In this document: positions 3,094-63,100 of the stretch, piece after piece
How the letters are laid out: each line of letters begins with the position of its first letter
How positions within the stretch are numbered: position 1 is the stretch's first letter
Source: a virus
Virus record (IMG/VR): IMGVR_UViG_3300024350_000252
Span: 62,001-126,000 of that record
Strand: one strand, 5' to 3'
DNA length: 64,000 bases
Translations under genes and position numbers: made by a program
Notes under the pieces: model-generated
The model's database searches: none
Told to the model about the DNA's origin: nothing
Seen by the model: the letters and a program-made list of their open reading frames with translations, nothing else

Positions 3094-3160
3094 AGACATA
3101 CTAGAAGGAATTATTAGATTTGGTTGTGGCCTAGCAGGAATAATTTATGAGAGCAAGTGA
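3059..3160 (+). CDS. Small hydrophobic peptide (33 aa)
   Basis: A 33-residue peptide with an amphipathic, hydrophobic profile: a central stretch from [12 protein letters not shown] to CGLAGIIYESK. It looks like a real short membrane-associated or helical protein rather than noise, and I recall similar short frames in marine T4-like phages. It fills the gap between iscA and the HAD gene and overlaps the latter by 14 bp. Function unknown. Confidence 0.45.
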   Translation: MTVRETLIALFKDILEGIIRFGCGLAGIIYESK

Positions 3161-34055: not shown

Positions 34056-34065
34056 CTGTCTTACC

Positions 34066-35868: not shown

Positions 35869-35886
35869 CTTAGCTCCAGTTCCCTG

Positions 35887-35894
35887 TATTTATT
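35887..35894 (-). promoter_or_regulatory. Late-promoter-like octamer AATAAATA
   Basis: On the minus strand the 28-bp gap upstream of the fibre gene contains AATAAATA, 19 bp before its ATG. T4 late promoters are TATAAATA, and cyanophage late promoters are described as NATAAATA. The same octamer lies at nearly the same distance (20 bp) from gene 6. Confidence 0.5.
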
Positions 35895-35896
35895 CG

Positions 35897-36364: not shown

Positions 36365-36365
36365 A

Positions 36366-38631: not shown

Positions 38632-38642
38632 CTGTCGCTCCG

Positions 38643-40463: not shown

Positions 40464-40483
40464 TTCGTTCGCCCGTTTTTATT

Positions 40484-42460: not shown

Positions 42461-42462
42461 TA

Positions 42463-44655
42463 TTATTGAGTTCCATCGTTACTTGGTCTACCAGATCTAA
42501 TAATATAATTCATAGTCATGAATGGATTCATTACGTTAAATGGTCTACCTATTTGTGAATCAACCAAACCAGAAACACGTTTATCTTCATTAGCAATTCT
42601 TACTAGTCCAGTAGATGCCATAGCTTGGCCGCCGCCAATAACTGTGCCTGCTTTGATCCTTGAGTTTGCTTGTCCCGAACCACCAATTAATGTAGTTGGT
42701 CCAAAATCTGTCGGAACCGATGTGTTTTCGTTAATAACATAAAATTGCGATCCCGAAGTTTGGTTGTCTGCTCTTCTTCCTTTTAAATCATGGTCATGAT
42801 CTGGAATATTATATGGTTCTATGACATACTGATCTTTACCACTAGTGCCTCCTAGAACACTAGCTTTAGAATCGTTGACTAGAGGAGTAACCAAAGCACC
42901 GCCACCAGCACTAGGGCTGCTAGTACCGCCCGGATAAGGTACAGTCAGCGCATTATACATATCCTGCTTACCTAACACTAATCTTCCACGAAGATCCGGC
43001 AATCTAAAAGTATTTCCTTTTGGCGATCCTAGCAGCGGAGTAGTACCGTTGTATATGGTTCCTACTACAGCAGCTAAATCTCTATATCTATATTCTTCTA
43101 CTTCTGATCCGTCGCAGAACAAATAACCTGTTGGACAAACTGGTCCAGCAAATGCTAATATTGTTCCAATAGGCACGTTAGCATCTCCTAAGAATGTGTC
43201 TCTAGTGATTTTTCTTAGACCTTGACCTGCTCTATAAATCAACATTTCGTCGTTGACTTGATAATTTCCTACAGATGCCTTATTAGAAATAATGTCAGAT
43301 GTTAGTGTAGTTGTAAAGACTTTATTAAGGTTACCTGTACCGTTAAATGCCACAACGTTACTAGACACGTCACCTTCCAATTTAAAATTAGTAGCCGATC
43401 TTAAGCTGGTAGCTGAATTTGAGTTTCCATCGATATTACCACTAACTGTACCTGTAATTGTATCAGCTACTACATTTCTAGCATAAATGGTAGCATATCT
43501 ATTAGTCGCTTCACCTATTGTTTCTGATGCTGTACGTGGTTTGATGGATTTTGTTCTAAGTGTACCGTTTTGTATTTCAACATCACCACCTACCCAAATG
43601 TTTTTCTTAACTGCCATACCACCCAGTGTCTGTATAGATCCACTGTCAAGATTAGTAGCATCTATTTCAGAACCGTTAGTGATAGTGCCTACTAGATTAA
43701 AATCTCCTACAAGATCTAATTGCTTTGTAGGATTAAGATTATTAATACCTACTCTATTTTCTACCACACGTACAATAGGTGTTCCAACACCAAAAGATCC
43801 TGTTCTACTAGGCTGTATGTCTATGCTGGCACCGGGTGTAGCATTATAGATTACAGCATTAGCCGATGTTACACTGATGTTTAAATTACCATTAGCACCA
43901 ACGTATATACCCGCATCATCTCTAACGTTAAACTGTGCTTGTACAGTTTGAATAGTATCTGTTCTAACAAAACTTGTAGCCGGAACTATAGTGGTTCCGT
44001 ATAAAAGACTATCGGCGCTAGTAGCTGTACCAACGAATCTAGGAGACACAGTAGTACTAGATATATCAGTTCTAGTTGTTAGATTGACACCAGTTTGTAT
44101 ACTGGTAAAGCCCTGTATGGTAACTTTAGGTGTAAAGGTATCTTTACTGATGATAGCAACAGGAATATCGTCTGTATACATGACCACAACTGATCTAGGA
44201 TTGTTGTCAATATCAAATAAACTTTCAACTTGCGGTCCAGTTTTAGTTCCTGAACTGTATTGAGGTCCCACCAAAACCCAGGATGTACCTGCCCACAGAT
44301 ATAATTGTTGTGTACTGGCGTTTACCCATAGATCACCAATAGTAGCACCGGATGGTTCATTGACTGCTGTCTGGATGTTACTAGTTGATTTCCAGCTAAT
44401 ACCATCAAATACAAATAATTTATTGTTACCGGAATCATACCAAAGCTGTCCTGTAACAGCTTTAGCTACATCTGGAGCACTATCGCTAGCAAAATTTTCT
44501 AATAAGTGTAATAGGTCTTCTGAAATAATCTTGGCGTACCCGACTTGGTTCCTACCAGGAAAAGACAAGCTAGTATCTTGATTAGTAGTATTATCTTGTA
44601 CTACCAATGGCTCAGGATGTAGCGTGGAATTTGTGAAATTTACGTTATATGACAT
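42463..44655 (-). CDS. Tail-fibre paralogue 1 with phage tail collar domain
   Basis: 730 residues, the longest of the five. The N-terminal module (FPGRNQVGYAKIISEDLLHLLENF, LWYDSGNNKLFVFDGISW, LWVNASTQQLYLWAG) is the most divergent. After the shaft, VPIGTILAFAGPVCPTGYLFCDGSE and FRLPDLRGRLVLGK form a collar domain. A Gly/Ser-rich tip containing NIPDHDHDL and a final FMTMNYIIRSG follow. The layout matches T4-like short-fibre or gp12-type collar proteins. It is transcribed directly after the small structural gene (3-bp gap). Confidence 0.9.
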   Translation of the reverse strand: MSYNVNFTNSTLHPEPLVVQDNTTNQDTSLSFPGRNQVGYAKIISEDLLHLLENFASDSAPDVAKAVTGQLWYDSGNNKLFVFDGISWKSTSNIQTAVNEPSGATIGDLWVNASTQQLYLWAGTSWVLVGPQYSSGTKTGPQVESLFDIDNNPRSVVVMYTDDIPVAIISKDTFTPKVTIQGFTSIQTGVNLTTRTDISSTTVSPRFVGTATSADSLLYGTTIVPATSFVRTDTIQTVQAQFNVRDDAGIYVGANGNLNISVTSANAVIYNATPGASIDIQPSRTGSFGVGTPIVRVVENRVGINNLNPTKQLDLVGDFNLVGTITNGSEIDATNLDSGSIQTLGGMAVKKNIWVGGDVEIQNGTLRTKSIKPRTASETIGEATNRYATIYARNVVADTITGTVSGNIDGNSNSATSLRSATNFKLEGDVSSNVVAFNGTGNLNKVFTTTLTSDIISNKASVGNYQVNDEMLIYRAGQGLRKITRDTFLGDANVPIGTILAFAGPVCPTGYLFCDGSEVEEYRYRDLAAVVGTIYNGTTPLLGSPKGNTFRLPDLRGRLVLGKQDMYNALTVPYPGGTSSPSAGGGALVTPLVNDSKASVLGGTSGKDQYVIEPYNIPDHDHDLKGRRADNQTSGSQFYVINENTSVPTDFGPTTLIGGSGQANSRIKAGTVIGGGQAMASTGLVRIANEDKRVSGLVDSQIGRPFNVMNPFMTMNYIIRSGRPSNDGTQ

Positions 44656-44658
44656 TTA

Positions 44659-45306
44659 TCAAACTCCAGTAAACCCAGTCAAGCTCTGTATCCTTATCGT
44701 GTAATCGATCTGGATCAATCTGTTTAAAGATTTCTGAACAGGATGGAAGACCACGTGTGTTAACAGTTTTCCGGTAGAAGATTTTAATCCTAGTTCATCA
44801 AAGACATAATCACCGTTCATGTCTACAGAATTGTCAAATGCTTCTTGTCCACTAGGCTCTCCGTAATCTAGCAAACATTTGATAACAATATCTGTATATG
44901 TTGCTCCACTGACATGGTTAATTTCCATATAATTTCTTGCTGTATCAGTGTTCAAAGGAGAATTTTGATCTACTACTTTGTTGTATGTCTGATAATACAA
45001 GCTGGAATTGATACCATTTGTGTTTGGTGTTAGATAAGTTATCAGCCCTGTGCTGTCAACTACTGTGCCACCGTTACCAAAAACCATTTCGGAAATCCAG
45101 CCTTGACCCTGATTTGATAGACTGTTAGCAAGAGCAACACTCATATTTTCGTAATGGATAGCGTTTGGCTTATCCCTGAACACTTCTCCAGTGCTAGGAT
45201 CCCAAATTTTTATATGTCCTCTGATGTCAAAACCGCAAATTTCGTTGGGTTTTTTATGATTTTGATCTGTTTTATTTTCAGGCATTTTTTCCGATTCCGT
45301 GTTCAT
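44659..45306 (-). CDS. Small baseplate/tail structural protein
   Basis: 215 residues from ATG 45306; a second start at 45285 (MPENKTDQ) is better spaced from the octamer upstream and has GGAAAAA before it, so it may be the real one. The core (GFDIRGHIKIWDPSTGEVF, NGGTVVDSTGLITYLTPNTNG) is strand-rich, and I recall it in baseplate clusters of T4-like aquatic phages. Position after the giant protein corresponds to the gp8 area of T4 but I cannot confirm homology. Confidence 0.72.
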   Translation of the reverse strand: MNTESEKMPENKTDQNHKKPNEICGFDIRGHIKIWDPSTGEVFRDKPNAIHYENMSVALANSLSNQGQGWISEMVFGNGGTVVDSTGLITYLTPNTNGINSSLYYQTYNKVVDQNSPLNTDTARNYMEINHVSGATYTDIVIKCLLDYGEPSGQEAFDNSVDMNGDYVFDELGLKSSTGKLLTHVVFHPVQKSLNRLIQIDYTIRIQSLTGFTGV

Positions 45307-45310
45307 ATGT

Positions 45311-45318
45311 TATTTATT
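45311..45318 (-). promoter_or_regulatory. Late-promoter-like octamer AATAAATA
   Basis: AATAAATA on the minus strand overlaps the stop of the giant gene. It is 5 bp from the first ATG of the next gene, but 26 bp from the internal ATG at 45285. If it is a functional late promoter, the internal start would be used from that message. Confidence 0.35.
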
Positions 45319-48300
45319 ATGGCAAATTTGTAGTCTTCTGCTGTAGGAACGTCACTATCGAAGTTTTGCTATTGCTTAATCCTTCTCCGGTAGTAGCTGA
45401 ACTGTTACCAACATCATACCATAGCTTGCCGGTTCTCTTAACCACTGTGATCCTAGTTGCTGCTTCTACAGCCGAAGTTAATCTTATATATGGCGTTGAT
45501 CCATCTACAGAAAATTCAGCTTCTACTAGCACATCGCCCGCAGGGCTATGTGAACCTACAGTTTGATCGTATACGTAGACAGGATCTTTGTTCAATCTGC
45601 GTCCAGCCACAAATACTTCGATAGTATCGCATGGTCCGTACTCTTCAGGTATACTGTCTACCGGCCATTCTTTCCTGTATCCTGTTCCATCTACAGCAGA
45701 TTTAGCAGGAATAAAAGTTAATGGCCCAATAAGCAAAGAAGTTCCGTCTGATACAAAATCTTCTTTTTCTTGAGAATCCTTGTAAGGAATAGCTTCTGTA
45801 TAACCTGTGATTACTACTTCAGTTCCCGCACTAAACAATGGCGTTACAGAAGTACCAAACATACCTCTTCTTAATCCCGTTAGACGATTACCATCTATAG
45901 CTAGATATTGTATTTTTTCTCCGCCTATAGTCACTATACCCGGCTGATCAAATTTGGGTACAGGAAGTGCTGTAGCATCTGTCAGTGTCATAGATTCGTC
46001 ATAGTAATTTAAATTTTCTACCAATTTGATGTTAGACAATGAGTATCTGCTGTAATAATTTTTGTTCAACACATCTTTAAATATTTCAAACGATACCGGT
46101 TCACGATAAATCATATCAGATCCGCTGATTATTTCCACTACATCAGTAGAGGTTGTAATAAATGAAGGATTGAATATAATTTCGTTTCTATTTCTTGATA
46201 GATAGTAATCTATATCCTGTGTAGCTCTTTCACCATTTACATATACCCATACATAAGAAACTCCTAAAACAGGTTTTTCTAGAGAATAAGCTAATTCGCC
46301 ACCTTTAAAGATGTCTCTGGTTAGATCCATCGTAGTATACTGTTCAAACCACTTGACGTTTAAAACATCACCTAATTGTAGATTTAAATCTGTCCTAAAA
46401 ACAATATTGTTATTTTTGATTTCATAGTTGCTATTAGAATAATCTTCTATCCTAATAATATCTCCTATGTCATATTTTCCAAACAGAGTCACTGTGTTGT
46501 CTTCAGCTGTGAACCCATAATCGATACCAAATATCAATAAATTGTCATTTACAAAAACTTTAACTTGGCTATCGATAATATCTCCTGGGTTTCTAAAAGG
46601 ATCTAAACCTATCTTTATAGAATCGTTACCTGAATAGATTTCTATAACAGTATCAACAGTGGTTAGTAAGTTACCGTTTCTTTCTACAAGAACGTTACTT
46701 GTAGGTGATCCTCCTAGATTGATAAATGATTCTAAAGGATATATTCTTTGTACGATATCAGTTACTGTTATAGTTTGATCATTGACTTTGATCAAAGGAG
46801 AATATGATCCCGATTCAGCAGATAGAACAACGATAGAAATCTTTCTGTTAACTTCCGGAGGATTACCAAACTCTACTAGAGTTTGATCTAGATCATTTAC
46901 CTGTCCTTTGCTGTTAACGAATCCGGCATCAACGATCTGTCCATCAACAGTAGCATAGATAGATCCAGTTTCAAAATATGATGCTCCTGTTAGATAATAT
47001 CTTGTTAGTCCGTCTGCTATAAATTCTTTATAGTCAAGAATTTCTGTACCACCTAACGCCATGGATACAACTTCTATTGTAGAACCAGCAGGTGGTAAAA
47101 CTCCGACGAATCTAACTTGATTAGTTTCAAAAGATATTGTATAATCTAGGCCGTTATCTTTTTTGACTTTATCGACATAAACTGTAACAGATTTTCTCTC
47201 AGTTACTTTCTGACCTATTTCATAGAGATCTGTCTGACCGTCTCCAAAATAAATTCTAGTTAATAGCGCAGGAGCTCCTGCTCTATCAGTATGGAACACT
47301 TTGATACTAAGTGTATCTAAAACCTGTCCCGGAACATTTTCCTCTGGAGCAGGTACTTGTTCTGGACTGATAAATTTTTGTCCGTCTAATACTATCTCAG
47401 AAGCAGTTTTACCTGTCGCTGTAGAGTATGCTCCACCTATATTTGTTAGATCCCCGCCAGATATAGCCGTATCGATATTTCTACCTACTAGTGCTACAGT
47501 ACCATCACTTTCGATCGGTCTGAATATCAGTGTATCATCTTTATCGATTTGTACTCCCGGAGGAATCGTTACAGCTATAGTAGATCCATCACCAACAAAT
47601 GTCTGCATCACAGCATGTTCGGGAGCTTCTTTCAAGCCGTTTATCTGTATCGTGCTTCCATCATAATAGTCAAAGAAAGGATCGTCTAATCTGACAGAAT
47701 TGTATTCTAATTTCTTTCTTAGATAGATTGTTATTTCTTTACCTAGAGGTGGCGGTTCAGGTAGATAGAATGTTCTATTAACACCATCAGCTGCTACATA
47801 AAAATCAGTGTTCATGTCGCCGGAGCTGTCCCATCCTTCTAATCCCCATGGCACAGCATCCCAACCAGCACCTACATCAAACATTGATCCTTGTACTATA
47901 ACTCCGCCAAAGTCTATGCCGGTGACTAGCTGTGAATAATCGCTGATTATTTCGCCATCTATTGTGTTCTTTTCTACACCTAACATACCAGATGTTGGTT
48001 GATAATACTTGTCTATCCTATTAAGAGCATCAAGTATTTCGTCATTCTTTTCGTAATGAACTGTAACTGTAGCACCCTGTGGCGGAGCTGCGTTCAATAA
48101 TAATTGACCAGTAAGAACTTCCGTTCCAGAAATATTTGTCTTGAAAATCTTGATCAAATATTGGCTGTTTAACAACTTGGCACCGTCTGTGCCTGCTGCT
48201 GTATTAGGATGTTTTAAAAATACAGCAATCTTAGATTTGTCTGTAGTGGGTGGATACTTTAGTGTGAAAGTATTTTTAGTACCAGGACATACAAATGATT

Positions 48301-51300
48301 CTGTTTCTAAGAAATTGTTTCCTAGATTTTTAAACTTCGGAGTCTTTGAATATCTATCAAACTTGATAGACATATCAAATGTACGAGCTTTAGATTGTCC
48401 TATGATGGCTACAGCTTTAGCAGAATTTTCTATCACTGTACCAACACCGCCAACTAATGTTACTGTAGGAGCAGAAGTATATCCTGATCCATGCTTGATC
48501 ATTCTTATATGTGTTACTACGCCGCTAGAAACAAATGCTTGTGCTTCTGCTCCATTACCACCACCGCCTTCGATGACTACCTTAGGTACGCTGGTATAGT
48601 TCTTTCCGCTGTATGTCAATACGATGTCTTTGACTACAAAAGCATGATTGTCTTTCCAGAATTTCCAAGGGTACTGATCGATTTCCAATCTTGTAGAATC
48701 AACAGGAACTATGCTTTGTGAATTAATATCAAAGACTGGAGGTAAATCAAAATCACTAATCGGTGAAGATGCTAGCTCTTGCCCTAAGTACCTACTGGTA
48801 TATTTTCTAATTTTGGTTCTATAAGGTTTAACTTCTTCGATATATTTCTGATAGCTAGAAAGATTATCGCTCTTATAGTTGATCCTATTGCTAAAATAAC
48901 CAACGTTGTGTGTTGCGTTCAAGAAACTGGTCTTGAATGCCCAATCGACATAAAGTTGTTCGCTGAATATGTAATGTATAGAAACAAAGAACAACTTGTT
49001 CCATTCGTTACTAAGTTCATCGATGAATATATTTTCTTTTACCGCTTTTAGAATATTTCTAAACTCGATAGAGAACGAAGTATCATATTTGTTACTATCA
49101 TAGCTTTGAGTTAAATCGTATCCTGTAGATTCCGCAGCAGTATTGTAGAACTTATTAACTATCTGGATAGTTCCATTTTTACGACCAACTAAACGATATT
49201 TGTTTTGTAAATCAGTAGCTATCGGATCGACTGTTTCAAAAACTGCCCAACCGCCAGAACCATATTCATCCACTCTTACTAGATCTCCTATCTCTACAGT
49301 CAGACCTGATTCTCTATAAAGTCCAGGAATAGTATATTTGATTCTAGAAGTATTGCTAAATCCCGACTTCCAATAGTCGACAGGAATCCAGAATTTAGTG
49401 GTATCATATGCTTGTGTTGCTGTCTTATAAAATGTTTCTGTTTTATCATCCCAACTATAGATAGCCCAATAGCCGTTTGAGTTCACATCGCTTTCGATCA
49501 ATACAGAAAACGGTCTAACATTTAGTCTAGCATTGATATACTTGGTGCCGCTATTTTCAATGATGACACCAGTCACCACGCCTAATTTATTAATAACTGT
49601 TTTAATCTTTGCGCCGGTGCCTGACCCATCTATTTCGACATAAGGTGGTACTCTATATCCTCGACCACCATCTATAACATCAACAGAAGTTATTTTTCCG
49701 TTAGCTATATTAGCTGACAACAAAGCCGGTTTTATTTTAGCAGTAGCTATAGTAGATAATTCTTTATAGCTGGCAAAAGATTGATCATACAGATTTAAAT
49801 TAGATTTAGGTAATGGTGCTGTTAAATTTAAATATTCATAAGAAATAGAATCTGCCAATGGATAACGAGAAAGTATATTGTTAATATAATCTACTGTTAT
49901 CTGTACCGCTTTATTTCTGTTAATAAACATAGACTGTCTAGGTCTATTGGCTATTCCGTATTTTGATTTTTCTGGAAGATCTTTATCAGGAACTGATCTA
50001 CCTAGAATATCTTCACCAACAAGACTGTCGATCCACTTTCTTTCTATATCTTCAACAGGATATTCATCAGAACCTTCTGTCAACAGAGTATATTCGTTGT
50101 GGACTAGATTTATGTTTTTATCAGTTTTATAGAATTGTATATTCAATAAAAATTCATCAGTATTGATAGAACCTTGTAAGTTATACAAAGAAATTTTATC
50201 AACATCAGTTATAGCAGCAAACGGAATTCCTGCTGTCGTTGGATTAGCAATGTAATTTGCTATAACTCCTGCGCTATTTGTTTTAGTAGAATTATTAGGC
50301 AGAGTATTTTTGCTTCTTACCCAATAATAGTAAACATTATATAATACTTCGCCGGTTATTGAGTCTAGTTTTTGCTTGTAAGAATAGTTTGAATCATCAG
50401 GATACAATGGTGTCCCGCTGATACCTTCTTCAAAACCAGCAGTAGTGCCAGTCATAGCTGCCCACTCGCTAGGCCTATAAATGGTTTCTACCCATTCGTA
50501 AACATCGATGCTAGCACCATATGCTAGTGAACCCCAATTAGCTGTCTTATAAACAAAATCATTTTGTTCATAATCAAGATACTTTGCGGTAGATGTTCTC
50601 CACCATATCTTACCAACATTATCATCCATCCATGCTTGGCCGGCGTCGATAGCATTATCAACAGTACCAGTAGAATAAACAGCAGGATCATAAGATGTTT
50701 TATAATCTATATCTTGATCAGCTATAGAAAGTATCTTTCCTTTAAATGGATCTATTATATCAAGGTCAGCAATCTTGCGATTATTAACAGCATCGTATAT
50801 GGCTAGATTTTTTAATTTGTCTATATCTATGCCGTTTGTTTGCTGCCTAATCACTGTCCAAGGTTTTACTCCTGCTTTCTTAGTAAATTTTTGTATCCTA
50901 CCAATCCTAGTAGTAGCAAAAGCAGGATCTAATGATAGATATTTTGGTGATCCAACAATGATCGAATCATTGGATGCTGAAAGAGACTTACCAAAGTCTT
51001 CATTGGTGTTAAGGCCTTCATCAAATATTTCTGAAAGAACAAACTTACCTACATACTTGTCAAACACATAGACTTTACCAGTTTTTCCTTGTGAATCTTT
51101 GAAGTTGGTAACAAAACGATCAAATCTAGTATCATTAGCATCAAATGTTGTAGTTTTATAACTTTCAGCACCTTCAGCTGAAATAGCTATAGTTTGATTA
51201 TCAGGAGTGATACAGATATTTGAACCGAATCTTTCGTTAGGATCTAGTTGACCGCTATCTAGTTTTTGTATCAGTTTATATGTTCCGTTTTTGTTTTCAA

Positions 51301-54300
51301 ATACGAATGTAGCTCCCTGGTCTACTCCTTTGAAGTTAGAAGCAGGAGCAGTAACAAACATATTTGTGGATTCAGAACTTAATAGAATCTTGTAACCAAA
51401 TTGATCGCCTGCGGAGATTTCTGTACTGTCAGTAAGATAAGAATTAACATTAACAGAATCTATATGTTGAGAAAGTTTATATGTGTTATTGCTATCTCTA
51501 TCATAGATAAACACCGCACCAGTCCTTGGCTGCTCTTCAGGATATTCTATAGACCAAATCGAAGGATTACCTTCCGGTATAGTTCCTTTATCAGAATCTG
51601 CTGCCAATGTATAGTAGCTGTCGTTTCTCCTAACAGTATCTCCTTTGAGATATATTTGATAGGATTTCCAGACACCTTTATACGAATCAAATGTCAGGCT
51701 ATCTGCGTTAGGTGCTCCAATTATTAACTTGCTGCCATCGGCATTAAAACTTAATGAATATCCATACGATGAACCTATTTTAATATTTTCTACATCATCA
51801 GTCGGTTTGATACCAGTTTGTATAGTAGATCCGTCATCTGGGGTAGCTGCTGTTACTGGCAGCATACCTGTATTCAATGAATCAATAGCTTCCCAATAGA
51901 CTGTAGAATCACCAGTAATAACTCCGGGAGTTTCTGTGTTAGGTGATATATCTGATAGAGCTTTGTAATAATTGTTTGTGTGCCAAACAACTGTACCTGC
52001 CGGATAGAATTTGGTGCTGTCAAATATTCCAACAAAACCTTCATCTTGGAAATGCGTCCATTCGATTCCGTTAAATTTATAAAGATATACTCTACCAGTA
52101 TCGTCTAGAGATCCCGGAGCACCAACTGCCATATAATAAGTTTCAGGAACAGCACCAATCGAAGTTCCTAAAATCCTAATTTGATCTCCTACATTATAGC
52201 GTAAACCTTTAACACCAACGGTAGCTGAATATGAACCTTCTGCCCTCGTCAATGTAAAGATAGCACCATTACCCGGCTCGCTGATATCTTCACCAACAAC
52301 ATCGTTATATTGTGCTTCGCCGGAAGATGCTATGCCACTCCAAGAAATTCCTGGTACCGCTGTACCAAAGAAACTAAAATCAGATATAGAAGTATCTGTA
52401 GCTGATGTTACAGCATCGACTCTTATAGTTAAATCATTAGCTGGTGAATATCCGCCTAGTTCAGTTCCGGGAATAGTTATTATTGTACCTGGAGTATAAG
52501 TAACTCGCAACCCTGTAGTAATTGCTCTATCTCTCCAAGGCAGAGCATTTGAAGCAAAATTAGATCCAGTAACTGGTTCCCAGAAATCAGTATCTGTAGG
52601 TAAGATAGGATTATGTGTTTCGTAATACTGTTCATCAGGTGGTGCTATCCCAGTAACTATAGCAGTCACTTTAAAATAGCCTACAGGTAGTACTGGATTA
52701 TATTGATAATAAACTATATCACCTGGATAATATGTAGTGTTGATATCCCAGGCACCTCGTTCAATTCTAGTATCTCTAATACAGGCATAGTATCTACCGT
52801 TATAACTAACAATGCTTCTTGCTGTATATCCCTGACCACTGTTTGTCAAATTAACATCAACATACAAATCCCTAAGTTTTGAAATTTGAAATACCGCTTG
52901 TTCAGATACGAGATTTGATTCTATACCGGTCACATTATTATATGTTTCCGATCCTAAAATTTCACCTAAAGAATTTACTGCGTTGACTGTTACAATAAGA
53001 TCATTTGTAGGTGTTACTCCACCAAGGCGACTACCAACTATCTTGATCCTGTCACCGACCGCGTATCTTGTGCCACCGTTTCTAACTGTTACAACATATC
53101 TATTCAATGCTCTGTTGATGTCAAACGAAGCATTAGAACCGGGTTCGCTGACATCTATACCACTGATGTTTTCAAATATAGCATTATTAAGACCACTGAC
53201 TCCCGATGCTGTTACTCCGAGGATTCCTCCTTCGGCATCTACAGTTGTGACCGTCAATGTAACATCACCACTAGTTCCTTCAATTCCAGCTACTTTAGCT
53301 ATAGATATACCAGAAGCAAAGTATTCACCGTGTCCCGGGCGAGGACTTATAATGGTATCTCGTAAAACATATTGTCCTTCGGAATATTCAAAGATATCGA
53401 TAGCACCTTGATTTCTATAACCTTGATTTATATCATAGATAGATTTGCCTAATGGGTTGGCTTTATGAATTACAGCTGGTTCCCAATCTTGAGAATTAAG
53501 ATTTATCGTACTACCATCACCGTAAATAGATCTAACCGCTCTCCATAGTTTGCCAGCATAAAGAACAGTGTCGTCTTGCTGATAGGTAGCATTTGGATCA
53601 AATGTTTCTCTATAATTACTAGGCACATAAGAAACGTTAGGTGAGCCTATCATCAACCAGCGACCATCTTCGCTAGTTGTCATTACTGTAGCATAAGAAC
53701 CCAGATATGTGCTTTGAAGACCAGAATTAGGTACTAATACCTGTAACGGTATCAAGCCACCCTGGCCCTGAGAATATACTATAACTGCCGACTCTCTAGT
53801 AACATCACCAGAAGTAACAACTGCGCCAGGGTTACCAACAATAGTGTTTCCTCTGCTGGCTAGATAGATCACACTGGCTCCTGTACCTGTCGGGAAAGCG
53901 ATACCGTATTCGGATATCTGTGTAGGATTATATTGTTTCTGTCTATTCAATACTTGCCAATATCCATCTCCACTATCATCTAACCATATCTTAGATCCTA
54001 CCGGTAATAAAGCAATTTTCTTAGATGTAAGATAAGATTGATCATCAATCCTTACTGTTTCAAATGTAGAGATATAACAGAAACTACTTTGATCTATAAC
54101 AGGTTCTTTAGTAGTACCTGCTACAGCTATGATAATCGTCTTAGGATTAACTCCGGCTACCTGATAAAAACCTGTTAGGTTTTCTATGTTAGTCAATCCA
54201 ATAATATCGCCTACTTTAAAATTGTGTACAATATTAGTGATTAACGAAACAAATCCTGTTTCGACTGCTACTGCTTTACCTACTAAGATTGATGTTATAG

Positions 54301-57300
54301 TATATCTATATACATCCCAGCCTGTTGGTAGGGAGGTCAACCATACTAACGAACCTTCTTTAAATATTGTTATATCAAGACTGTATAATTCGTCAAGTGT
54401 AGTAACTGTAAAATCGACGTCGGCAGGATTTACATACCCCGCAGACATATTGTTTATAGGATAGTATTTTGTAGGAAATTTAAATTTCCTAGATCCTATC
54501 TTATAATCAGAGTCTTTTACCAATACAGATGTTTGATACTGCTTAATATCTATTCCTGTTGTATCTAATAACACAGGTTGCGGATTGATATTGATATTTT
54601 CTTTTTTGATCGAAACTTCTATTTCATTAGACTGATCAATACCACCTAGTCTACCTACAAGAAATGCCCATTCTTCATCAAGAACGACAGCATCTGCTTC
54701 GATAGCACTCACCTTGTCAAATATCTTAGTGATAGAATTTGCTGTACCTTTTTCTCTTATGAAGCCTTGGTATAATCTAAATTGAGTTACTTCATCTTCT
54801 GCTATATCCTGTAGGTATTCTCTTTGTTGATACCCAATAGAGTGTTGTGCTAACTTTTTCTGTTCGTTATCGATACCGATATAGTCTAGTTCGAAATAAT
54901 CTTCTATTTGATTGATTTTATAATCAAAATTAGATACTAGACCTTTCTGAGGAAGATTATCTAATCTTTCCCAATTATTAGAATTAAATTCAACGGAACC
55001 TTTTTGAAACTTCAAGCTGGTATAGTAAAACTGTTTGTATTGTACTATATCTCCTAATCTATAATCAGTAAACGGTTTCCAAGTTTCTATATTAACATCG
55101 TCATAGATGAATCCCGGACTTGTGTAGTCACCATCCCAGTCGGTGGTACGGAAACCTGCGACTTTGATTCTTTCTTGTCGATATCCTGGTGCCTTATCAA
55201 ATATAACATCACCAAACACAGTTCTATCATTGAATACAACTACGTGTTCTTTGGTCACATAATTGATTTTAGCAAAATAAATTCCGTCTGTGCTATCAAG
55301 AGGTGTTAGTATAAACTTGTTAAATGTCCTATAAACCTGTATGTCCTTAGGTTGTATTTTTGTCCCGTCACTTCTTTGTATATTATAATCATAAAAATTA
55401 TCAAGTAGATTATCAGCGACTCGACCAACTTTTTCTATAGTGATCGCAGACGCAGACGGGCTTAGTGAAATGATAGAACCATTGGCCCAATTATGAGTAG
55501 TCCAGAACATGAATTCTTTGCAACTAGTTTCCCAATCATTGGGTACTTGTAAATCTGTATTAAAAGATTCAAATACCATTCCCTGGTCTTTGAGATATTC
55601 TCCATAACCAAGAAGGAAATCTACTACAGACTGTAAATCAGCGAATACAGTATTATATGGCAGCACAGCCGGCTGATACTTAGAAAATTTACTTCTGTTA
55701 ATAGCTGTAATCGATCCAACTATGGGAACCGACAGTATAGATACCCAAAGAGAACTTTCAAAATTTTCTGAGCTAGTATGAGCCTGTCTAGATCTGTAAA
55801 ATTTACTTTGATATCTAATCAATGTTCCTGATGGATAGTATTGATTAGCAGTCCACTCTACAAAAGTTTCGCTAACACCGCCTACAGAAAATACAGGATC
55901 ACTAGCTGTAGTCAATGGATGATAATATGTAAAAGCAGAAACTAATGTGTCATAGCCTGTGAGTTTCCAACCCGAAGATGTTTTTTCGATAATTACAGCC
56001 GAATAAGAAACAGTTTCTACTGGTGTGCTAACATTAAAAAATATCTCATAATCTTCAGAAGGAACAAAAATTCCTGAAGTTTTAGATTGAGGACTCTTGC
56101 TATCTAACAAATACTTCTGTTGATTTTTATCTACGAACCCACCTATCTTGTTAGATAATTTTACTTTAAAATTATCAGAATTAAATTTTGAAGCTAATTC
56201 TACAGATGCTACAGAATTAGATTTTAGATAATCAACGACATAATTTACGAGACCTTTTGGTTTTGTAACATCTAGTGTTGATTGATAAACTTCATCTAAA
56301 CTAAGGAATTTTCCTGTAGACGTAGACACCATTTGATCCATATCATTTTTAGTCAACAGCGTTCTGTCAAAATTCAATGATACAGTCTGTAATGGTCGTA
56401 ATAAAATAATTGCTTGTAATAGAGCGAAAGGATATCTGCCACTTTTTCTCCAAGCAGATTCAGCCGGACCTATGTCGCCAAATACAAATGCTTCGGCAGG
56501 CTGTATGATAGCATAATTTATAATCGATCCAGATGACACAGGATCTAATAATCTACCCTCATCGTCAACTGGAAGATAAGAAAGCAAGTTTGGTCTCTTG
56601 AATCTAATATGAGTACCTGCTCTATTACCTTGTCTAATTACACCGTCTCTTATATCTTCCCACAACAATAAGTTTCCACTAGTGTACGGTGCTGGACCAT
56701 ACTCTTCTTCCCACCATGTTGGTTTTTCACTAAAACCTAGCATTTCCCATGGTCGAGTATGAGGAGCATCAGTATCATATAGATAGATATAAATGCCTCG
56801 CCAGTATGCTGGCATTTTTTCAGTTCGAGTTATATCTGTGGCTTTAGAAAAGCTATAGGTGTACTGATTTTCGCTTTCAAAATAGTTATTAGCATAAGGA
56901 TCTATTCCTAATGGATTAGCCCATCTTAAAAATTCTTGATTTAATACACTGTCTAATTGTGCTTTAGTGAATTCACCAGTCTTTCCATAACCGCCCAAAA
57001 GATTATCAAGATCTAAGAAATCAGGATTGTATTGAATCTTGATATTGTTATAAATTCTTTTTTCTAATTCTAAAAGTAGTTCATCTCTGAAATCATCATA
57101 AGCTACTATAATACTACCGTCATGCCCTCTTATCACTCTAGTAGGTTCTAGATATGTGTCGTCGAGATAAATCTCAGGTGTAAATTTTTTATATAATCCT
57201 AATTTAGTAGGAGTCATCGGCATAAAATTAAATGCCGTTGTATAATATTCTTTTATCTGTATCTGATCATTTTCTACTAAGTCTATCAGTAAACGAACAA

Positions 57301-60142
57301 ACCCAAATGTAGAATCAAATTCATAATCTCTACCAACTAAAAGCTGTACGTTGTTGCGATAAACATAAACAGCTTTTAATGATTCAGTAGATAAGTCAAA
57401 TTTCTGAGAAAGAGCAAAAACTTTTATACCTTCGTCTTCTACAGTATAATCGATAGAATTATACGCACCGCTACCAATCATGTCTGAATTAGCAAAAGGC
57501 GAATTACTATTTTTTGATTTGCTAATATGATCGATGATCTGATCAACAAATTTTACTGTATCTAGTTCAAACGGTAATTCTACAGCTAAATTTAAAAATT
57601 CTGATTTATATTTGTCATATTCTAAAGCAGCATAAGAAATAGCCTTGATTACATTAATCTGTCTATCACAGACCAAAGGTAATGATATAGAAGGTACTCC
57701 AGAATGTTTTATAAATCTTCTACCGTAATAGAGGTAATCATCTATATCTCTAAGATTGCTTATACCAGGAAATTGTCCAGAAAAATCTCTAGATAATTCT
57801 ACCATAGATCTTAGATGATCATTAACCTGGCCTAAAGTGAATTGTGCTACATCTTCATTAAGTGGATTTCTTTCTAATGGCAACGGAAATTCATAAAAAC
57901 CTAAATTAGGTTCAGCATCAGAATAAACTTTAATCATCAGTACATCATTTACAGCAAACTCTCTGATAAATGTAAAAGTTCTTTTATCGTTGATGACAGT
58001 ATCTGTGTACGAATCTTTGATTAAATCTCCGTTGAGATAGAAGAGAATTTTTTCTCTAGTAACTTGATCCCAAAAAACAGCATCAAACTCCACTGTGTTT
58101 GTAACTTCAGTAAAGGTATGAGTCTGTATTACTGCCTGACAATAATCTTCATCAAACAATGACCAAGAATTCTTATGTACCCAACTGCCTAGCTCTTTTA
58201 ACAGTCTGTAATAACCAAAATTTATATTTCTTGTTACGACTGTTGGTCCGGACTGATAGGTAAAGTTCTGTGTTTCAAAATCAAAATCAAAAAGTATATC
58301 GCCAGTATTATTGATATTAAGGTAACTGACTGCGAATCCTAATTCTTTGTCCACTACTCCCGCAGGATCAACTTTGTAACTTATCAATCTAGTTCCTTGG
58401 AAACTAGATGTTACATATTTTTGTGTATCTGAAAGGCTGACATTATCGCTATCAAATATATCGAATAATGGTGCTTGGTTGACTGCTAGTTTTTCCTGGC
58501 TCTTCTTCCATACTGTTCCATCAAAATGATACATCTTGCCGGCATTTGTTTTGCCTTTAGTAACGATAAGACATTCTCCAGCTAGTGTTTCACTGTCATC
58601 TGCTTCTACTAGATTTATTTGTTTTCTGTTAACTGTGTTAGTGCTAGTCTGGATCGTGACAAATTTAACAACATAGATCTTGTTATTGACCATATTGTCG
58701 TTGTCTGCTGTAAACAGAACTCTAGCTCCTTCAAACAACGGCACATTGTCGATATTATATCCAGCAGTGCCTTCTATAGTAGAAAACACATCAGTGGTAA
58801 AATCATCGATTAGATCTACGCTGTTCTTGGCTTTAGAACCATGGTTGAAAAGCTGTAGATTAGTTTGGAATTCTATGATAGGACGTTTAGCTCTGCTGTC
58901 TTCAGCTAATCCCGCCGTGGTGCCATTTAATTGGGCAGAATATTCTATGACACTTCTATGGAACCAACGATTGTAACGACTCCATGGATTCTTATCCAAG
59001 CTGGCACGATTGATGGTTATATAATCTTTTTTAGACGGATAGGTAGAAGCATCATCGAATGGTTCTGTGTCAAAAGGCTGATCGTCAAACACCAATGCTC
59101 CGTAAGGATTTGGTATGGGAGGTAACTCTAAATCTGACAAATTAATCAGTTTGATACCTGTGCCTACTCCTTCTACTATCCAATAACCTTTTCTGTAGAT
59201 TTCCGGAGAAGTTTTGCCTACAAATTCTACTCGTAGTCCATTGGTAAATTTTACACCGTTGCTGCTTTGATAATTGAGCTTACCGATAATATCTTTTTCT
59301 ACATCGAGATATGTATTATCTAATACGTTAGCTATCCTAAAAGAACCTATACGGTTGATATTAGTTCCACTTTGATAGTAGAGCATGTCTGGTGCATCAT
59401 TAGGAACTTTAAATGTGATTTTGCCAACTTCAATGCCGTTATTAGTAACACCCTTGTTGTAATCTGATGGTGTTCCTAGCAGTGTTGTAAGATAATCGAT
59501 CGTGTCTGAAGTTCTAATATGGAAACCGTCGCCTGGACAATTAACATTAAATTCATATGTCTGCCCTCGATACAAAGTTATCGCAGGATTTCTTTTTAAT
59601 CCGTCAGGAAAAAATAACCATTCATTCTGTCCTTCGGTTACTACTTTGTATGAAGATACTACTGATTGTTCTTGTCCTAATACCTGTACAGGATCTGGTC
59701 CGGCAGGAAGCCAATAGTATTCTCTATAATTAACAAACTTGTCTAGGTCGAGAGGTGGAGTCCATGTATAGTGCTGCTGACCTGTAGTTAGATCATCTCT
59801 TTCATTTTTGTTATTAAAAAATTTTAATTGATTTTTTAGATCTACATAATCAAAAAGATTTTTAGGTTTTTTATTTTCATCGTAGATCACTACGCCGGGT
59901 TCAAATTGATAAGCGTGTCTTAGGCTTTGAGCGACATCTAAGTAAACGTCACTAGTATTATATGTGCGACCATAATTGCGCCCAATGTAACCGTTTAATC
60001 TATCTAAGGTACCTGGCTGTATTAAAGGATCTAAAGTAGCTGACAAAAATTTGTCATTAGACGAAGACCTAAAAATTTCAGGTAATAGTTCTACGGTCCT
60101 CCTTAGAGGTAAACCACTTTGTTTAAAAACTTTTTTATCCAT
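45317..60142 (-). CDS. Giant mosaic baseplate/adhesin protein (4,941 aa)
   Basis: A single uninterrupted frame of 4,941 residues at the T4 gene 7 position. The N-terminal region (LPEIFRSSSNDKFLSATLD, NGYIGRNYGRTYN) recalls large proteins following gp6 in marine T4-like phages and probably anchors it to the wedge. About six CBM5/12-like modules with a Y-x2-G-x2-V-x-Y...Y...W pattern occur near residues 1440, 1700, 2190, 2465, 2720 and 2840. FG-GAP-like beta-propeller repeats (YSLSFNADGSKLIIGAP) lie at about 2780-3130, with GxGYxxxPxV repeats near 3500 and 3860. A receptor-binding role in the tail is inferred. Uneven size and modular repeats suggest growth by duplication. Confidence 0.9.
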   Translation of the reverse strand: MDKKVFKQSGLPLRRTVELLPEIFRSSSNDKFLSATLDPLIQPGTLDRLNGYIGRNYGRTYNTSDVYLDVAQSLRHAYQFEPGVVIYDENKKPKNLFDYVDLKNQLKFFNNKNERDDLTTGQQHYTWTPPLDLDKFVNYREYYWLPAGPDPVQVLGQEQSVVSSYKVVTEGQNEWLFFPDGLKRNPAITLYRGQTYEFNVNCPGDGFHIRTSDTIDYLTTLLGTPSDYNKGVTNNGIEVGKITFKVPNDAPDMLYYQSGTNINRIGSFRIANVLDNTYLDVEKDIIGKLNYQSSNGVKFTNGLRVEFVGKTSPEIYRKGYWIVEGVGTGIKLINLSDLELPPIPNPYGALVFDDQPFDTEPFDDASTYPSKKDYITINRASLDKNPWSRYNRWFHRSVIEYSAQLNGTTAGLAEDSRAKRPIIEFQTNLQLFNHGSKAKNSVDLIDDFTTDVFSTIEGTAGYNIDNVPLFEGARVLFTADNDNMVNNKIYVVKFVTIQTSTNTVNRKQINLVEADDSETLAGECLIVTKGKTNAGKMYHFDGTVWKKSQEKLAVNQAPLFDIFDSDNVSLSDTQKYVTSSFQGTRLISYKVDPAGVVDKELGFAVSYLNINNTGDILFDFDFETQNFTYQSGPTVVTRNINFGYYRLLKELGSWVHKNSWSLFDEDYCQAVIQTHTFTEVTNTVEFDAVFWDQVTREKILFYLNGDLIKDSYTDTVINDKRTFTFIREFAVNDVLMIKVYSDAEPNLGFYEFPLPLERNPLNEDVAQFTLGQVNDHLRSMVELSRDFSGQFPGISNLRDIDDYLYYGRRFIKHSGVPSISLPLVCDRQINVIKAISYAALEYDKYKSEFLNLAVELPFELDTVKFVDQIIDHISKSKNSNSPFANSDMIGSGAYNSIDYTVEDEGIKVFALSQKFDLSTESLKAVYVYRNNVQLLVGRDYEFDSTFGFVRLLIDLVENDQIQIKEYYTTAFNFMPMTPTKLGLYKKFTPEIYLDDTYLEPTRVIRGHDGSIIVAYDDFRDELLLELEKRIYNNIKIQYNPDFLDLDNLLGGYGKTGEFTKAQLDSVLNQEFLRWANPLGIDPYANNYFESENQYTYSFSKATDITRTEKMPAYWRGIYIYLYDTDAPHTRPWEMLGFSEKPTWWEEEYGPAPYTSGNLLLWEDIRDGVIRQGNRAGTHIRFKRPNLLSYLPVDDEGRLLDPVSSGSIINYAIIQPAEAFVFGDIGPAESAWRKSGRYPFALLQAIILLRPLQTVSLNFDRTLLTKNDMDQMVSTSTGKFLSLDEVYQSTLDVTKPKGLVNYVVDYLKSNSVASVELASKFNSDNFKVKLSNKIGGFVDKNQQKYLLDSKSPQSKTSGIFVPSEDYEIFFNVSTPVETVSYSAVIIEKTSSGWKLTGYDTLVSAFTYYHPLTTASDPVFSVGGVSETFVEWTANQYYPSGTLIRYQSKFYRSRQAHTSSENFESSLWVSILSVPIVGSITAINRSKFSKYQPAVLPYNTVFADLQSVVDFLLGYGEYLKDQGMVFESFNTDLQVPNDWETSCKEFMFWTTHNWANGSIISLSPSASAITIEKVGRVADNLLDNFYDYNIQRSDGTKIQPKDIQVYRTFNKFILTPLDSTDGIYFAKINYVTKEHVVVFNDRTVFGDVIFDKAPGYRQERIKVAGFRTTDWDGDYTSPGFIYDDVNIETWKPFTDYRLGDIVQYKQFYYTSLKFQKGSVEFNSNNWERLDNLPQKGLVSNFDYKINQIEDYFELDYIGIDNEQKKLAQHSIGYQQREYLQDIAEDEVTQFRLYQGFIREKGTANSITKIFDKVSAIEADAVVLDEEWAFLVGRLGGIDQSNEIEVSIKKENININPQPVLLDTTGIDIKQYQTSVLVKDSDYKIGSRKFKFPTKYYPINNMSAGYVNPADVDFTVTTLDELYSLDITIFKEGSLVWLTSLPTGWDVYRYTITSILVGKAVAVETGFVSLITNIVHNFKVGDIIGLTNIENLTGFYQVAGVNPKTIIIAVAGTTKEPVIDQSSFCYISTFETVRIDDQSYLTSKKIALLPVGSKIWLDDSGDGYWQVLNRQKQYNPTQISEYGIAFPTGTGASVIYLASRGNTIVGNPGAVVTSGDVTRESAVIVYSQGQGGLIPLQVLVPNSGLQSTYLGSYATVMTTSEDGRWLMIGSPNVSYVPSNYRETFDPNATYQQDDTVLYAGKLWRAVRSIYGDGSTINLNSQDWEPAVIHKANPLGKSIYDINQGYRNQGAIDIFEYSEGQYVLRDTIISPRPGHGEYFASGISIAKVAGIEGTSGDVTLTVTTVDAEGGILGVTASGVSGLNNAIFENISGIDVSEPGSNASFDINRALNRYVVTVRNGGTRYAVGDRIKIVGSRLGGVTPTNDLIVTVNAVNSLGEILGSETYNNVTGIESNLVSEQAVFQISKLRDLYVDVNLTNSGQGYTARSIVSYNGRYYACIRDTRIERGAWDINTTYYPGDIVYYQYNPVLPVGYFKVTAIVTGIAPPDEQYYETHNPILPTDTDFWEPVTGSNFASNALPWRDRAITTGLRVTYTPGTIITIPGTELGGYSPANDLTIRVDAVTSATDTSISDFSFFGTAVPGISWSGIASSGEAQYNDVVGEDISEPGNGAIFTLTRAEGSYSATVGVKGLRYNVGDQIRILGTSIGAVPETYYMAVGAPGSLDDTGRVYLYKFNGIEWTHFQDEGFVGIFDSTKFYPAGTVVWHTNNYYKALSDISPNTETPGVITGDSTVYWEAIDSLNTGMLPVTAATPDDGSTIQTGIKPTDDVENIKIGSSYGYSLSFNADGSKLIIGAPNADSLTFDSYKGVWKSYQIYLKGDTVRRNDSYYTLAADSDKGTIPEGNPSIWSIEYPEEQPRTGAVFIYDRDSNNTYKLSQHIDSVNVNSYLTDSTEISAGDQFGYKILLSSESTNMFVTAPASNFKGVDQGATFVFENKNGTYKLIQKLDSGQLDPNERFGSNICITPDNQTIAISAEGAESYKTTTFDANDTRFDRFVTNFKDSQGKTGKVYVFDKYVGKFVLSEIFDEGLNTNEDFGKSLSASNDSIIVGSPKYLSLDPAFATTRIGRIQKFTKKAGVKPWTVIRQQTNGIDIDKLKNLAIYDAVNNRKIADLDIIDPFKGKILSIADQDIDYKTSYDPAVYSTGTVDNAIDAGQAWMDDNVGKIWWRTSTAKYLDYEQNDFVYKTANWGSLAYGASIDVYEWVETIYRPSEWAAMTGTTAGFEEGISGTPLYPDDSNYSYKQKLDSITGEVLYNVYYYWVRSKNTLPNNSTKTNSAGVIANYIANPTTAGIPFAAITDVDKISLYNLQGSINTDEFLLNIQFYKTDKNINLVHNEYTLLTEGSDEYPVEDIERKWIDSLVGEDILGRSVPDKDLPEKSKYGIANRPRQSMFINRNKAVQITVDYINNILSRYPLADSISYEYLNLTAPLPKSNLNLYDQSFASYKELSTIATAKIKPALLSANIANGKITSVDVIDGGRGYRVPPYVEIDGSGTGAKIKTVINKLGVVTGVIIENSGTKYINARLNVRPFSVLIESDVNSNGYWAIYSWDDKTETFYKTATQAYDTTKFWIPVDYWKSGFSNTSRIKYTIPGLYRESGLTVEIGDLVRVDEYGSGGWAVFETVDPIATDLQNKYRLVGRKNGTIQIVNKFYNTAAESTGYDLTQSYDSNKYDTSFSIEFRNILKAVKENIFIDELSNEWNKLFFVSIHYIFSEQLYVDWAFKTSFLNATHNVGYFSNRINYKSDNLSSYQKYIEEVKPYRTKIRKYTSRYLGQELASSPISDFDLPPVFDINSQSIVPVDSTRLEIDQYPWKFWKDNHAFVVKDIVLTYSGKNYTSVPKVVIEGGGGNGAEAQAFVSSGVVTHIRMIKHGSGYTSAPTVTLVGGVGTVIENSAKAVAIIGQSKARTFDMSIKFDRYSKTPKFKNLGNNFLETESFVCPGTKNTFTLKYPPTTDKSKIAVFLKHPNTAAGTDGAKLLNSQYLIKIFKTNISGTEVLTGQLLLNAAPPQGATVTVHYEKNDEILDALNRIDKYYQPTSGMLGVEKNTIDGEIISDYSQLVTGIDFGGVIVQGSMFDVGAGWDAVPWGLEGWDSSGDMNTDFYVAADGVNRTFYLPEPPPLGKEITIYLRKKLEYNSVRLDDPFFDYYDGSTIQINGLKEAPEHAVMQTFVGDGSTIAVTIPPGVQIDKDDTLIFRPIESDGTVALVGRNIDTAISGGDLTNIGGAYSTATGKTASEIVLDGQKFISPEQVPAPEENVPGQVLDTLSIKVFHTDRAGAPALLTRIYFGDGQTDLYEIGQKVTERKSVTVYVDKVKKDNGLDYTISFETNQVRFVGVLPPAGSTIEVVSMALGGTEILDYKEFIADGLTRYYLTGASYFETGSIYATVDGQIVDAGFVNSKGQVNDLDQTLVEFGNPPEVNRKISIVVLSAESGSYSPLIKVNDQTITVTDIVQRIYPLESFINLGGSPTSNVLVERNGNLLTTVDTVIEIYSGNDSIKIGLDPFRNPGDIIDSQVKVFVNDNLLIFGIDYGFTAEDNTVTLFGKYDIGDIIRIEDYSNSNYEIKNNNIVFRTDLNLQLGDVLNVKWFEQYTTMDLTRDIFKGGELAYSLEKPVLGVSYVWVYVNGERATQDIDYYLSRNRNEIIFNPSFITTSTDVVEIISGSDMIYREPVSFEIFKDVLNKNYYSRYSLSNIKLVENLNYYDESMTLTDATALPVPKFDQPGIVTIGGEKIQYLAIDGNRLTGLRRGMFGTSVTPLFSAGTEVVITGYTEAIPYKDSQEKEDFVSDGTSLLIGPLTFIPAKSAVDGTGYRKEWPVDSIPEEYGPCDTIEVFVAGRRLNKDPVYVYDQTVGSHSPAGDVLVEAEFSVDGSTPYIRLTSAVEAATRITVVKRTGKLWYDVGNSSATTGEGLSNSKTSIVTFLQQKTTNLP
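52139..53285 (-). repeat. Degenerate internal repeats of about 100 residues in the giant protein gene
   Basis: The encoded region (residues about 2285-2668) holds three diverged copies. They share blocks such as YxVGDxIxIxGxxxGG, P-x-NDLxxxVxAV, VxGxxxSEPG and FxxxRxxxxYxVTVxxxG. Copies are separated by CBM-like and linker segments. The similarity is protein-level; DNA identity is low. The copies show that this part grew by duplication of one strand-rich unit. Confidence 0.55.
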
Positions 60143-60144
60143 TA

Positions 60145-63100
60145 TTAAATGCTCGTGCTAGTTACGATCGACGACGTTGTAAGTTTAAGATCTGAAGCTG
60201 TTATATTAGTTAGTATATCAATGGTATCCACAGTTACAGCACTGACTAACAGTTCATCGGGTTTACTTTGTATTTCTAAAAGACTGCCAAATGCCTGCGT
60301 TGTTTGTACAGGAACTATTACCATGTTGCTGATGTCTGGTGAATTTTCTTTAACCACATATGTGATTAACTCACTTGCGTGGAATCTATCACCAAAATCA
60401 AAATTCTGTACATCAAAGAAATCAGAAATAGCATTGACAATTCTAACTTTAAGATCATTATCGTTGATACTTCTGTTAGGATTTTTTACAACCTTAATCC
60501 TTGCTTGGAATTCTGCTCTTGCCTTAGATCCAAATAACGGAAAATAGCTCACAGGATGATATACTATTTCGTCACTGATAGCCTTGATAGGAGCTAGATT
60601 ATTACCAAATTCTACTCTTAAAGCTTCTGCGGTCGGTGCTTGTGGCTCTGTAGCGATAGCACCTTTCAACCAAAGTCTATAGTTGTTGTCGTAATTTCTT
60701 GTCAATAGATAAACATCAATGATATTGGTCACAGAAGGATCTATTCTTCTTCCTTCACCAGAAGTGTGAATATACTGGAACTTTAAATCGCTGCGTCCTA
60801 CATATCCCACATACGAAGGTTCTAAAATAAAGGTATTGGTTACCAAATCTACTCGCTTGACAAAATTTTCTAACTGATCATAAAAATATATCAATTGATT
60901 GTGAGCATAATCATTTACTGCTGTATTAGCTTCTTTGTCTCGTACCAATATGTAATCGTTCTTGTTTGGCACAAACACGTAAGTTTTAGCACCAAATTCA
61001 TCAACATCCTCTTTAAAGAATACATATTTGGTAGTATTATTGGTTCCCACTATTTCATCAAAAGCATCAGGATTATCTATGACTCCGTCATCGTTAGAAT
61101 CAATAAAACTGATCTTGATCGAGTCATTGGCTTGATATCCATCATCATAGCGCACACTATCCGAAACAGTAAATGAAACGTCTTCTTTGATAGTCTGTTT
61201 AGAATCAACTATAGATAATACATCAGCAAGAGTAAACTGAGGTTTATTAGTCTTTAAAGCTAGGATAGCATTAGCCACTTCTAATGATCCTACATTCAAT
61301 GCCACCGGTGCTGTGTTTACTGATAATACCTTGACAGCATCTTTGATAACTGTTCTTGTTTTGCTATCATAGATTTTTTGATTCTTATCAAAATAAAATC
61401 TATTTTGTTCAACACTGGTGAAAACATAATCTGTTCCTCTCAGTCTTACTTTGTAAGTTTCACCATCAAAAATAAATGCTATCAACCAAGAAGCATCTAG
61501 GCTCTTGTTGGTAGAATCGCCTGCTTGACCTAGATTAAAATTACTAGTTTGATCTATGTTACTAGCTGTTACTATCGCCCAAGAATTGGTTGTTCTTACA
61601 TATCTTATACCAAAAGTTTGATTTAGGAAACAGAGGTTGATTATTTCTGATTCTATATCGCTGGTAAATTTATTATCAAATTTAGGAACTACCTGCGATG
61701 GTACAGCACCTGTAGGAATAACCGAGCTGACTGTAATCGGGCCTCTGCCTGTTGATAAATTACCTTTACCTGCGTTTGTGCCATCACCTACAACCTGTAC
61801 AACTTTGGCCCAGATATATGTCTTATGATCAGTATTCATGGGATCATAATCAACGACTTTGCCTTTGTAAAATGCTTTCGTGCTGCTAGGTGGTACAAAT
61901 TTAATTAGAGCATTTACTGTTAGATATTTTAAGTTACTGGTAGTATAAGATCCTACACGTATAGGAAAACTGTCAAATGCGTTGCCAAAATAACCCGTAC
62001 TTGATCCAGTATCTGCTGTGCTCTGTAACCATTTAACGTTAACGTCTGAAAGGAAAATTTTATCAAAGTTAGTAAGATAAAAATTATAAGTTTGAAAATC
62101 AGCTACTGCTGGTTCTATGACATCCTTGATATAATTCAACAAAATAGTTTTATTAGAAAGTGTAAAACTAAAAGTTCTTTCGTTGTCATATCGATAGATG
62201 ATTCCGTCGTCGGCAAATACATTTACACCACTGTACTTTCCGCTAGCATCAATGATATCAAAATTCCTGCTTATACCGCTGCTACTTCTGTTGATCGATT
62301 TTACCTTGAGAATATCTTGGCTGCTAGATAGCGGAGCTAGATTATAATCTTCTCCTGTGATCATTCTATTCTGTGTATAATAGACAGCAGGAGCATTAGC
62401 ACGGATAGTGTCCATGTCTTCAGATGCGGCGCTGTTATCCACGCTGTAATAGAGGCTACAGGTCACTGTCAAGGTTTCAGCAGTACCTCTAGAACTAGTA
62501 TAAGGAATTGATAAAGTTACTCCTCGTAATTCGTTAGGAGAAATAATATATCTTAAACCATTGCTGACTCTATAATAAATCTTAAAAGAACCTCTAGGCA
62601 AATTGCCATACACACCGTCAGCAAATAAAAGATCTACCTGATCATTATTTTTTGTAATAGCAGAATAGATATTCTTGACGCCGTTGCTAACACTATTATA
62701 AACAATATTGTTGCCTGTCAAAGAAGAAACCTGTGTCCATTTTTCTCCTTGATTTCCTGCGGCATCGACAGCATATAGCCAAAGGTCATCATTGTTAATA
62801 CCATTGGTAGTGATATTGATTATTTCGTTAACTGTCGGCTGTGTGATCGTAAAATCAGCCGTAGTCATGCTACCTTGCTTGAACAGTAAGAAAAATCCAG
62901 TATTGCTGCTAGCATTACCTTTTCCGTCTTGTCTGTAGACAAAACCTAACTTATTGCCCGGAATAGGATCTTCTTCATAGATATAATCTTTTCCGATTAT
63001 GCTAGTACTAACCAATTCAAAATTCATAGAACGGCCGCCTGCTACCTTACTAAAAGTATAGATAGGAACCCCGGTATTTGAAGCATTAAATCTGTACTGA

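Follow-up and report, generated by a model that had tools for sequence, protein, structure and literature searches.

Gene content of the locus

The window analysed here, a stretch of 64,000 nucleotides from a 238,047-base IMG/VR virus record, contains on its minus strand a gene (P0001, 45317-60142) for a giant baseplate-region virion structural protein of 4,941 aa belonging to PHROG 10938. The reading frame begins with ATG and runs uninterrupted through 4,941 codons (about 23% of the window), while the plus-strand frame over the same interval has stops throughout. A first-pass annotation had given these coordinates exactly, together with the correct size and share of the window; the strand, absent from it, is minus, and all features described below lie on this strand.

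The same open frame was found in an independent IMG/VR contig (L008/G001, 88 kb; 4,946 codons), which was identical to the giant protein (100% identity) in both a 579-aa N-terminal and a 342-aa C-terminal query. Intact frames of the giant gene were present in 18 of 18 IMG/VR records checked (4,459-4,946 codons). With the independent contig and 17 other records intact, an assembly artefact or chimaera was ruled out as the source of this reading frame, and the length of the gene is therefore a trait of the group and not an accident of one contig. A DNA-level search against phages gave no match; only protein search works for this gene at such distance.

Along the direction of transcription the locus is ordered gp53, a 708-aa structural protein, gp5, gp25, gp6, the giant gene, a 215-aa protein and tail fibres. 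In the upstream flank (L087) the gp53-type protein is a wedge protein of 100 aa and the gp5-type protein a hub/lysozyme, with the 708-aa structural protein between them and a gp25-type protein after them. Directly upstream of the giant gene lies a gp6-type baseplate wedge protein of 1,169 aa (60145-63654), whose match to TIGR02243 is weak, and directly downstream lies the 215-aa protein (44659-45306; phrog_11259), which is 77-78% conserved in close relatives. This arrangement agrees with the order 53-5-6-7 in T4 and W-J-I-H in P2, and because it does, the placement of the giant gene at the position of T4 gene 7 (P2 gene I) by the first-pass annotation is right: the gene stands directly after gp6.

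The tail-fibre cassette follows at 32709-44655, with collar domains in two of its proteins. Five tail-fibre-like proteins within 34066-44655 have a common N-terminal domain (GKN..GYG...NENF..LLENF; phrog_15511/14394). In the same interval, three proteins related to each other diverge chiefly towards the C-terminus, and one protein has a Peptidase_G2-like end. The cassette also encodes a protein of 165 aa (36366-36863) that is 71% conserved in relatives, has no PHROG match and by eye resembles 2OG-Fe(II) oxygenases. Past the fibres a further run of genes occupies 27068-32298, including a radical SAM protein (27068-28495); several proteins of this run are without PHROG match, and the one at 31483-32298 is glycosyltransferase-like by eye.

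Domain architecture of the giant protein

The protein begins with a conserved block (residues 10-164; 59651-60115), a putative wedge-docking anchor with the motif LLPEIFR..NDKFL..TLDPL..PG..D.LNGYIGR ... YQFEP ... PP.D.DKF.NYREYYW. It is common to the phages RaK2, 121Q, PA5oct, SCTP-2, Phosso, Atu_ph07 and Vibrio 2.275, and its presence even in RaK2 and 121Q bears out the conserved N-terminus noted at first pass. A cupredoxin-like (YHYH) domain at about residues 152-271 (59330-59689) was recognised from an AlphaFold2 model and its fold matches in PDB and BFVD, which are to plastocyanin/rusticyanin and YHYH-named phage proteins; as read from the sequence, the usual Cys/His/Met copper ligands are missing. 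Scans of the N-terminal region with Pfam and NCBIfam gave nothing but CBM_5_12 among credible matches.

Most of the remaining length alternates between blocks of the family core and inserted modules. By HMM match to distant members, core blocks were delimited at residues 363-889 (57476-59056; modelled beyond about residue 370 at a pLDDT of mostly 80-95), 968-1680 (55103-57241), 1734-2004 (54131-54943), 3093-3436 (49835-50866) and 3554-3812 (48707-49483). The C-terminal tail (residues 3836-4941; 45320-48637) is rich in strands; it starts with a GxGY repeat, continues with tail-fibre-like strand modules and is in part common to PA5oct. Strand-rich repeat families had been proposed from the letters, and two sets of related copies were indeed found, one at about residues 2309-2394, 2519-2580 and 2598-2681 and one of GxGY type at residues 3493-3538 and 3846-3891. 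A match to PHROG 460 ("head closure") at residues 3836-3897 was read as a shared GxGY repeat module and not as a head protein, because only 62 residues are covered.

On the whole giant protein the Pfam CBM5/12 family scored 45.7 bits against a cut-off of 26.2 (E = 6.7e-12). An iterated module HMM gave six modules, one of them partial, in agreement with the earlier estimate of roughly six. Module 1 (residues 1429-1467; 55742-55858), found by Pfam as well, lies in core block 968-1680 and resembles the chitin-binding domain of chitinase A1 (E = 0.002) and the deacetylase DA1 (E = 6e-4). Module 2 occupies residues 1687-1727 (54962-55084). Three modules are placed in or between propeller blades, namely modules 3 (residues 2180-2221; 53480-53605) and 6 (residues 2824-2863; 51554-51673), each in a blade loop, and module 5 (residues 2706-2752; 51887-52027), which stands between blades and whose HMM segment ends at 2737 with the terminal Trp at 2750. 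The partial module 4 (residues 2434-2458; 52769-52843) is located inside an insertion. Five of the modules keep both their framework aromatics and a terminal Trp, the Trp in 84-100% of about 50 relatives, and the same architecture and module positions recur in these relatives.

The propeller itself, of FG-GAP type and seven-bladed, spans about residues 2037-3100 (50843-54034). Its blades were assigned via the pattern FG..(S/G)..GAP..G.VYVY, six of them clear and one weaker, and FG-GAP_2 matched the protein just below the Pfam cut-off (E = 1.5e-4). The predicted structure of residues 1990-3170 (mean pLDDT 69.9, 80-95 in the blades) matched the fold of integrin alpha propellers (probability 1.00, E = 1.8e-8) with low TM-scores, which are due to the large insertions in the query. 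The FG-GAP-type propeller suspected at first pass is thus borne out by both the blade repeats and the fold match of the model. One blade holds an internally repeated insertion of about 380 residues (residues 2311-2690; 52073-53212), in which module 4 lies; this insertion is present in the closest relatives, has a mean occupancy of 14% in others and accounts for most of the extra length of the protein.

Relatives of the giant protein

The giant protein matched PHROG 10938 ("virion structural protein") with E = 0 and 1032 bits, the best stretch being residues 698-1681. The cultured homologues range from 3,323 to 4,555 aa (PA5oct gp355, 3,857; Phosso gp294, 4,555; Atu_ph07 gp180, 4,449; Vibrio phage 2.275 NVP2275O_424, 3,771; RaK2 gp465, 3,326; 121Q gp582, 3,323; SCTP-2 gp140, 3,807), and relatives of the N-terminus occur in at least 590 IMG/VR stretches. 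In six of the seven cultured phages (RaK2, 121Q, PA5oct, Atu_ph07, Phosso and Vibrio 2.275) the homologue lies directly after the gp6-type gene; the exception is SCTP-2, in which the gp6 match is elsewhere in the record. With an HMM built from 18 close members, six colinear core blocks were recovered in the same order in all seven distant members.

The cultured members thus share the six colinear blocks and the N-terminal block with the protein described here, identity across the N-terminal third being about 24-29%, whereas the latter is longer and has six CBM5/12 modules instead of 0-2 and a large propeller with inserted modules. In RaK2 and 121Q the region of the propeller and CBMs is for the most part missing, and in RaK2 only about 100 residues separate the blocks that flank the propeller in the giant protein. 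Uncultured freshwater and marine relatives from IMG/VR (e.g., G002, G003 and G017) have a near-identical architecture (4,459-4,946 codons, 4-7 CBM modules), but most of them have one more CBM, near residue 220, and do not have the 380-residue insertion. Within this known family the protein is a new and unexceptional member, which somewhat exceeds the cultured ones in size and in number of modules. Nor is size alone unique, since gp071 of the Synechococcus cyanophage ACG-2014d (L109, record 45306-65759), likewise a giant virion structural protein of a T4-like phage and compared here by size alone, is longer (about 6,800 codons).

Evidence for the virion membership implied at first pass comes through relatives. 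The sequence record of PA5oct gp355 bears an ESI-MS/MS mark, and in the 121Q-like phage phAPEC6, gp245 (381.88 kDa, 17 unique peptides) was detected in virions and adjoins the baseplate wedge protein gp244 (PMC7247149). CBB_236, detected with 21 peptides, adjoins the baseplate wedge protein CBB_237 (PMC5259590), and by this place it may be counted as a further virion-detected relative. By analogy, the giant protein of this record would also be present in virions.

Relation to gp7 of T4

T4 gp7 (a baseplate wedge protein of 1,032 aa) and P2 gpI occupy the same gene position after gp6 and gpJ, respectively, but the giant protein is nearly five times as long as gp7, and similarity to either was detected neither in sequence nor, over residues 1-889, among the listed fold matches. 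The first-pass annotation had regarded it as an altered gp7, and neither the comparison of profiles nor the Pfam domains of gp7 nor fold matches in PDB, sought with residues 1-889, supported this descent. In hhalign, an eight-sequence gp7 alignment reached a probability of at most 0.5% against the whole family alignment and thirteen overlapping chunks, and the anchor compared with gp7 and P2 gpI gave 0.1-0.2%. Pfam gp7 domains were absent from the giant protein, and gp7 was absent among the PDB matches listed for residues 1-889, of which the anchor stretch 14-80 was modelled at low confidence. As a control, T4 gp6 was matched to the gp6 family (E = 6.5e-4), whereas P2 gpJ against the gp6 family failed, so these tests are low in power for very distant homology. 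A resemblance of the N-terminal motif LLP.iFr..n.kFL to P2 gpI was also considered and was unsupported by hhalign.

The protein could still be a true gp7 homologue that has diverged past detection, with the gp7 core in blocks 10-164 or 3093-3812, the latter leaving the most room for a remote relation. The gp6 of a contractile wedge normally requires a partner of gp7/gpI type; the giant gene sits exactly where T4 and P2 encode that partner, and Gp7_helical and Gp8 matched nowhere in the genome record. Against these points stand the hhalign probabilities, obtained with one control working and one failing, and the listed PDB matches, and we lean slightly against homology.

A probable wedge-arm scaffold with inserted modules

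We consider it highly probable that the giant protein is a peripheral structural protein of the baseplate wedge arm of a T4-related jumbo phage, standing in place of T4 gp7 and P2 gpI. We infer the wedge role from synteny; a fold match to any solved wedge protein was not found. The N-terminal block would probably dock on the gp6 wedge and the colinear core blocks would build the arm, from which the FG-GAP propeller and the CBM5/12 modules may project as inserted domains. Such modules could serve as spacers or make weak multivalent contacts with polysaccharide of the host surface, at a stage when the downstream-encoded fibres have yet to commit the phage. RaK2 and 121Q work without the propeller and nearly without CBMs, which means that the core role does not depend on these parts. 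Most probably the protein forms a scaffold of the wedge arm and carries accessory modules for surface binding. A recurrent and unnamed class of giant jumbo-phage proteins is hereby placed at the gene-7 slot, with its constant core separated from add-on modules. What takes the place of gp7 in these phages, and whether baseplate CBMs bind sugars or merely build the particle, become testable questions.

For the inserted modules, loss of sugar binding is possible but rather doubtful; the CBM5/12-like domains would then act as small structural spacers or in protein-protein contacts within the baseplate. Their fixed positions and the existence of low-scoring and partial copies fit such a use, as does their spread over many virion proteins of the phage group, which includes the gp6 of Vibrio 2.275, Phosso and Atu_ph07 and two further large proteins of the same genome. 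However, the modules retain their terminal Trp and further aromatics, and the variation from 4 to 7 modules in close relatives is more in keeping with optional parts of the surface than with load-bearing ones. In the gp6-type wedge protein of Vibrio phage 2.275 (L006:4647-8510) three CBM5/12 modules were counted, so the adjacent wedge gene is likewise subject to CBM insertion.

The opposite emphasis, a strong form of the view taken in the first-pass annotation, makes the protein a dedicated multivalent glycan adhesin, in which receptor binding falls mainly to the CBMs and propeller and the wedge role comes second. The wedge protein Gp119 of phage Vp4 carries CBMs and binds cells (PMC11406892), which gives the idea of a glycan adhesin a precedent and makes it plausible. 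Gp119 and the "evolved" Dit/Tal proteins of siphophages are likewise structural baseplate proteins with inserted CBMs, but they are unrelated to the giant protein, smaller and equipped with other CBM families (CBM16-like, CBM4 and CBM22). The likeness of module 1 to chitinase A1 and DA1 and the aromatics kept in five of the six modules also speak for sugar binding, yet conserved aromatics are no proof of it because the fold needs them too. Every region of the protein is under purifying selection, and the CBMs are the fastest-evolving regions (dN 0.35-0.53, a rough estimate); with dS near saturation the omega values are rough, and only the ranking by dN is usable. This rate would suit an adhesin, whereas the purifying selection, the fixed module positions and the constant architecture argue against one, as do the separate fibre genes immediately downstream, the 0-2 modules of distant members and the better-scoring CBM arrays that this genome encodes in two further proteins. 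Judged from sequence, a glycan-binding activity is possible, but adhesion as the main function is unlikely. A hypervariable adhesin was rejected, as identity among the five closest relatives does not fall sharply across the propeller and is lower only in some of the CBMs.

Very improbable is a wedge protein acting as receptor sensor, in which the CBM-bearing, integrin-like propeller would bind host glycans and signal via the arm to gp6; if it were true, the baseplate and not only the fibres would decide when the tail fires. The wedge-arm scaffold remains the preferred reading.

The two other CBM-bearing proteins of this genome are large paralogues encoded outside the window (L143:5296-11364 and L143:11423 onwards; G000:C1, about 166.3-175 kb). 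They measure 2,022 aa and at least about 2,526 aa, and both start with 7-8 tandem CBM5/12 modules. Since these modules score above those of the giant protein, the paralogues are the better candidates for glycan binding.
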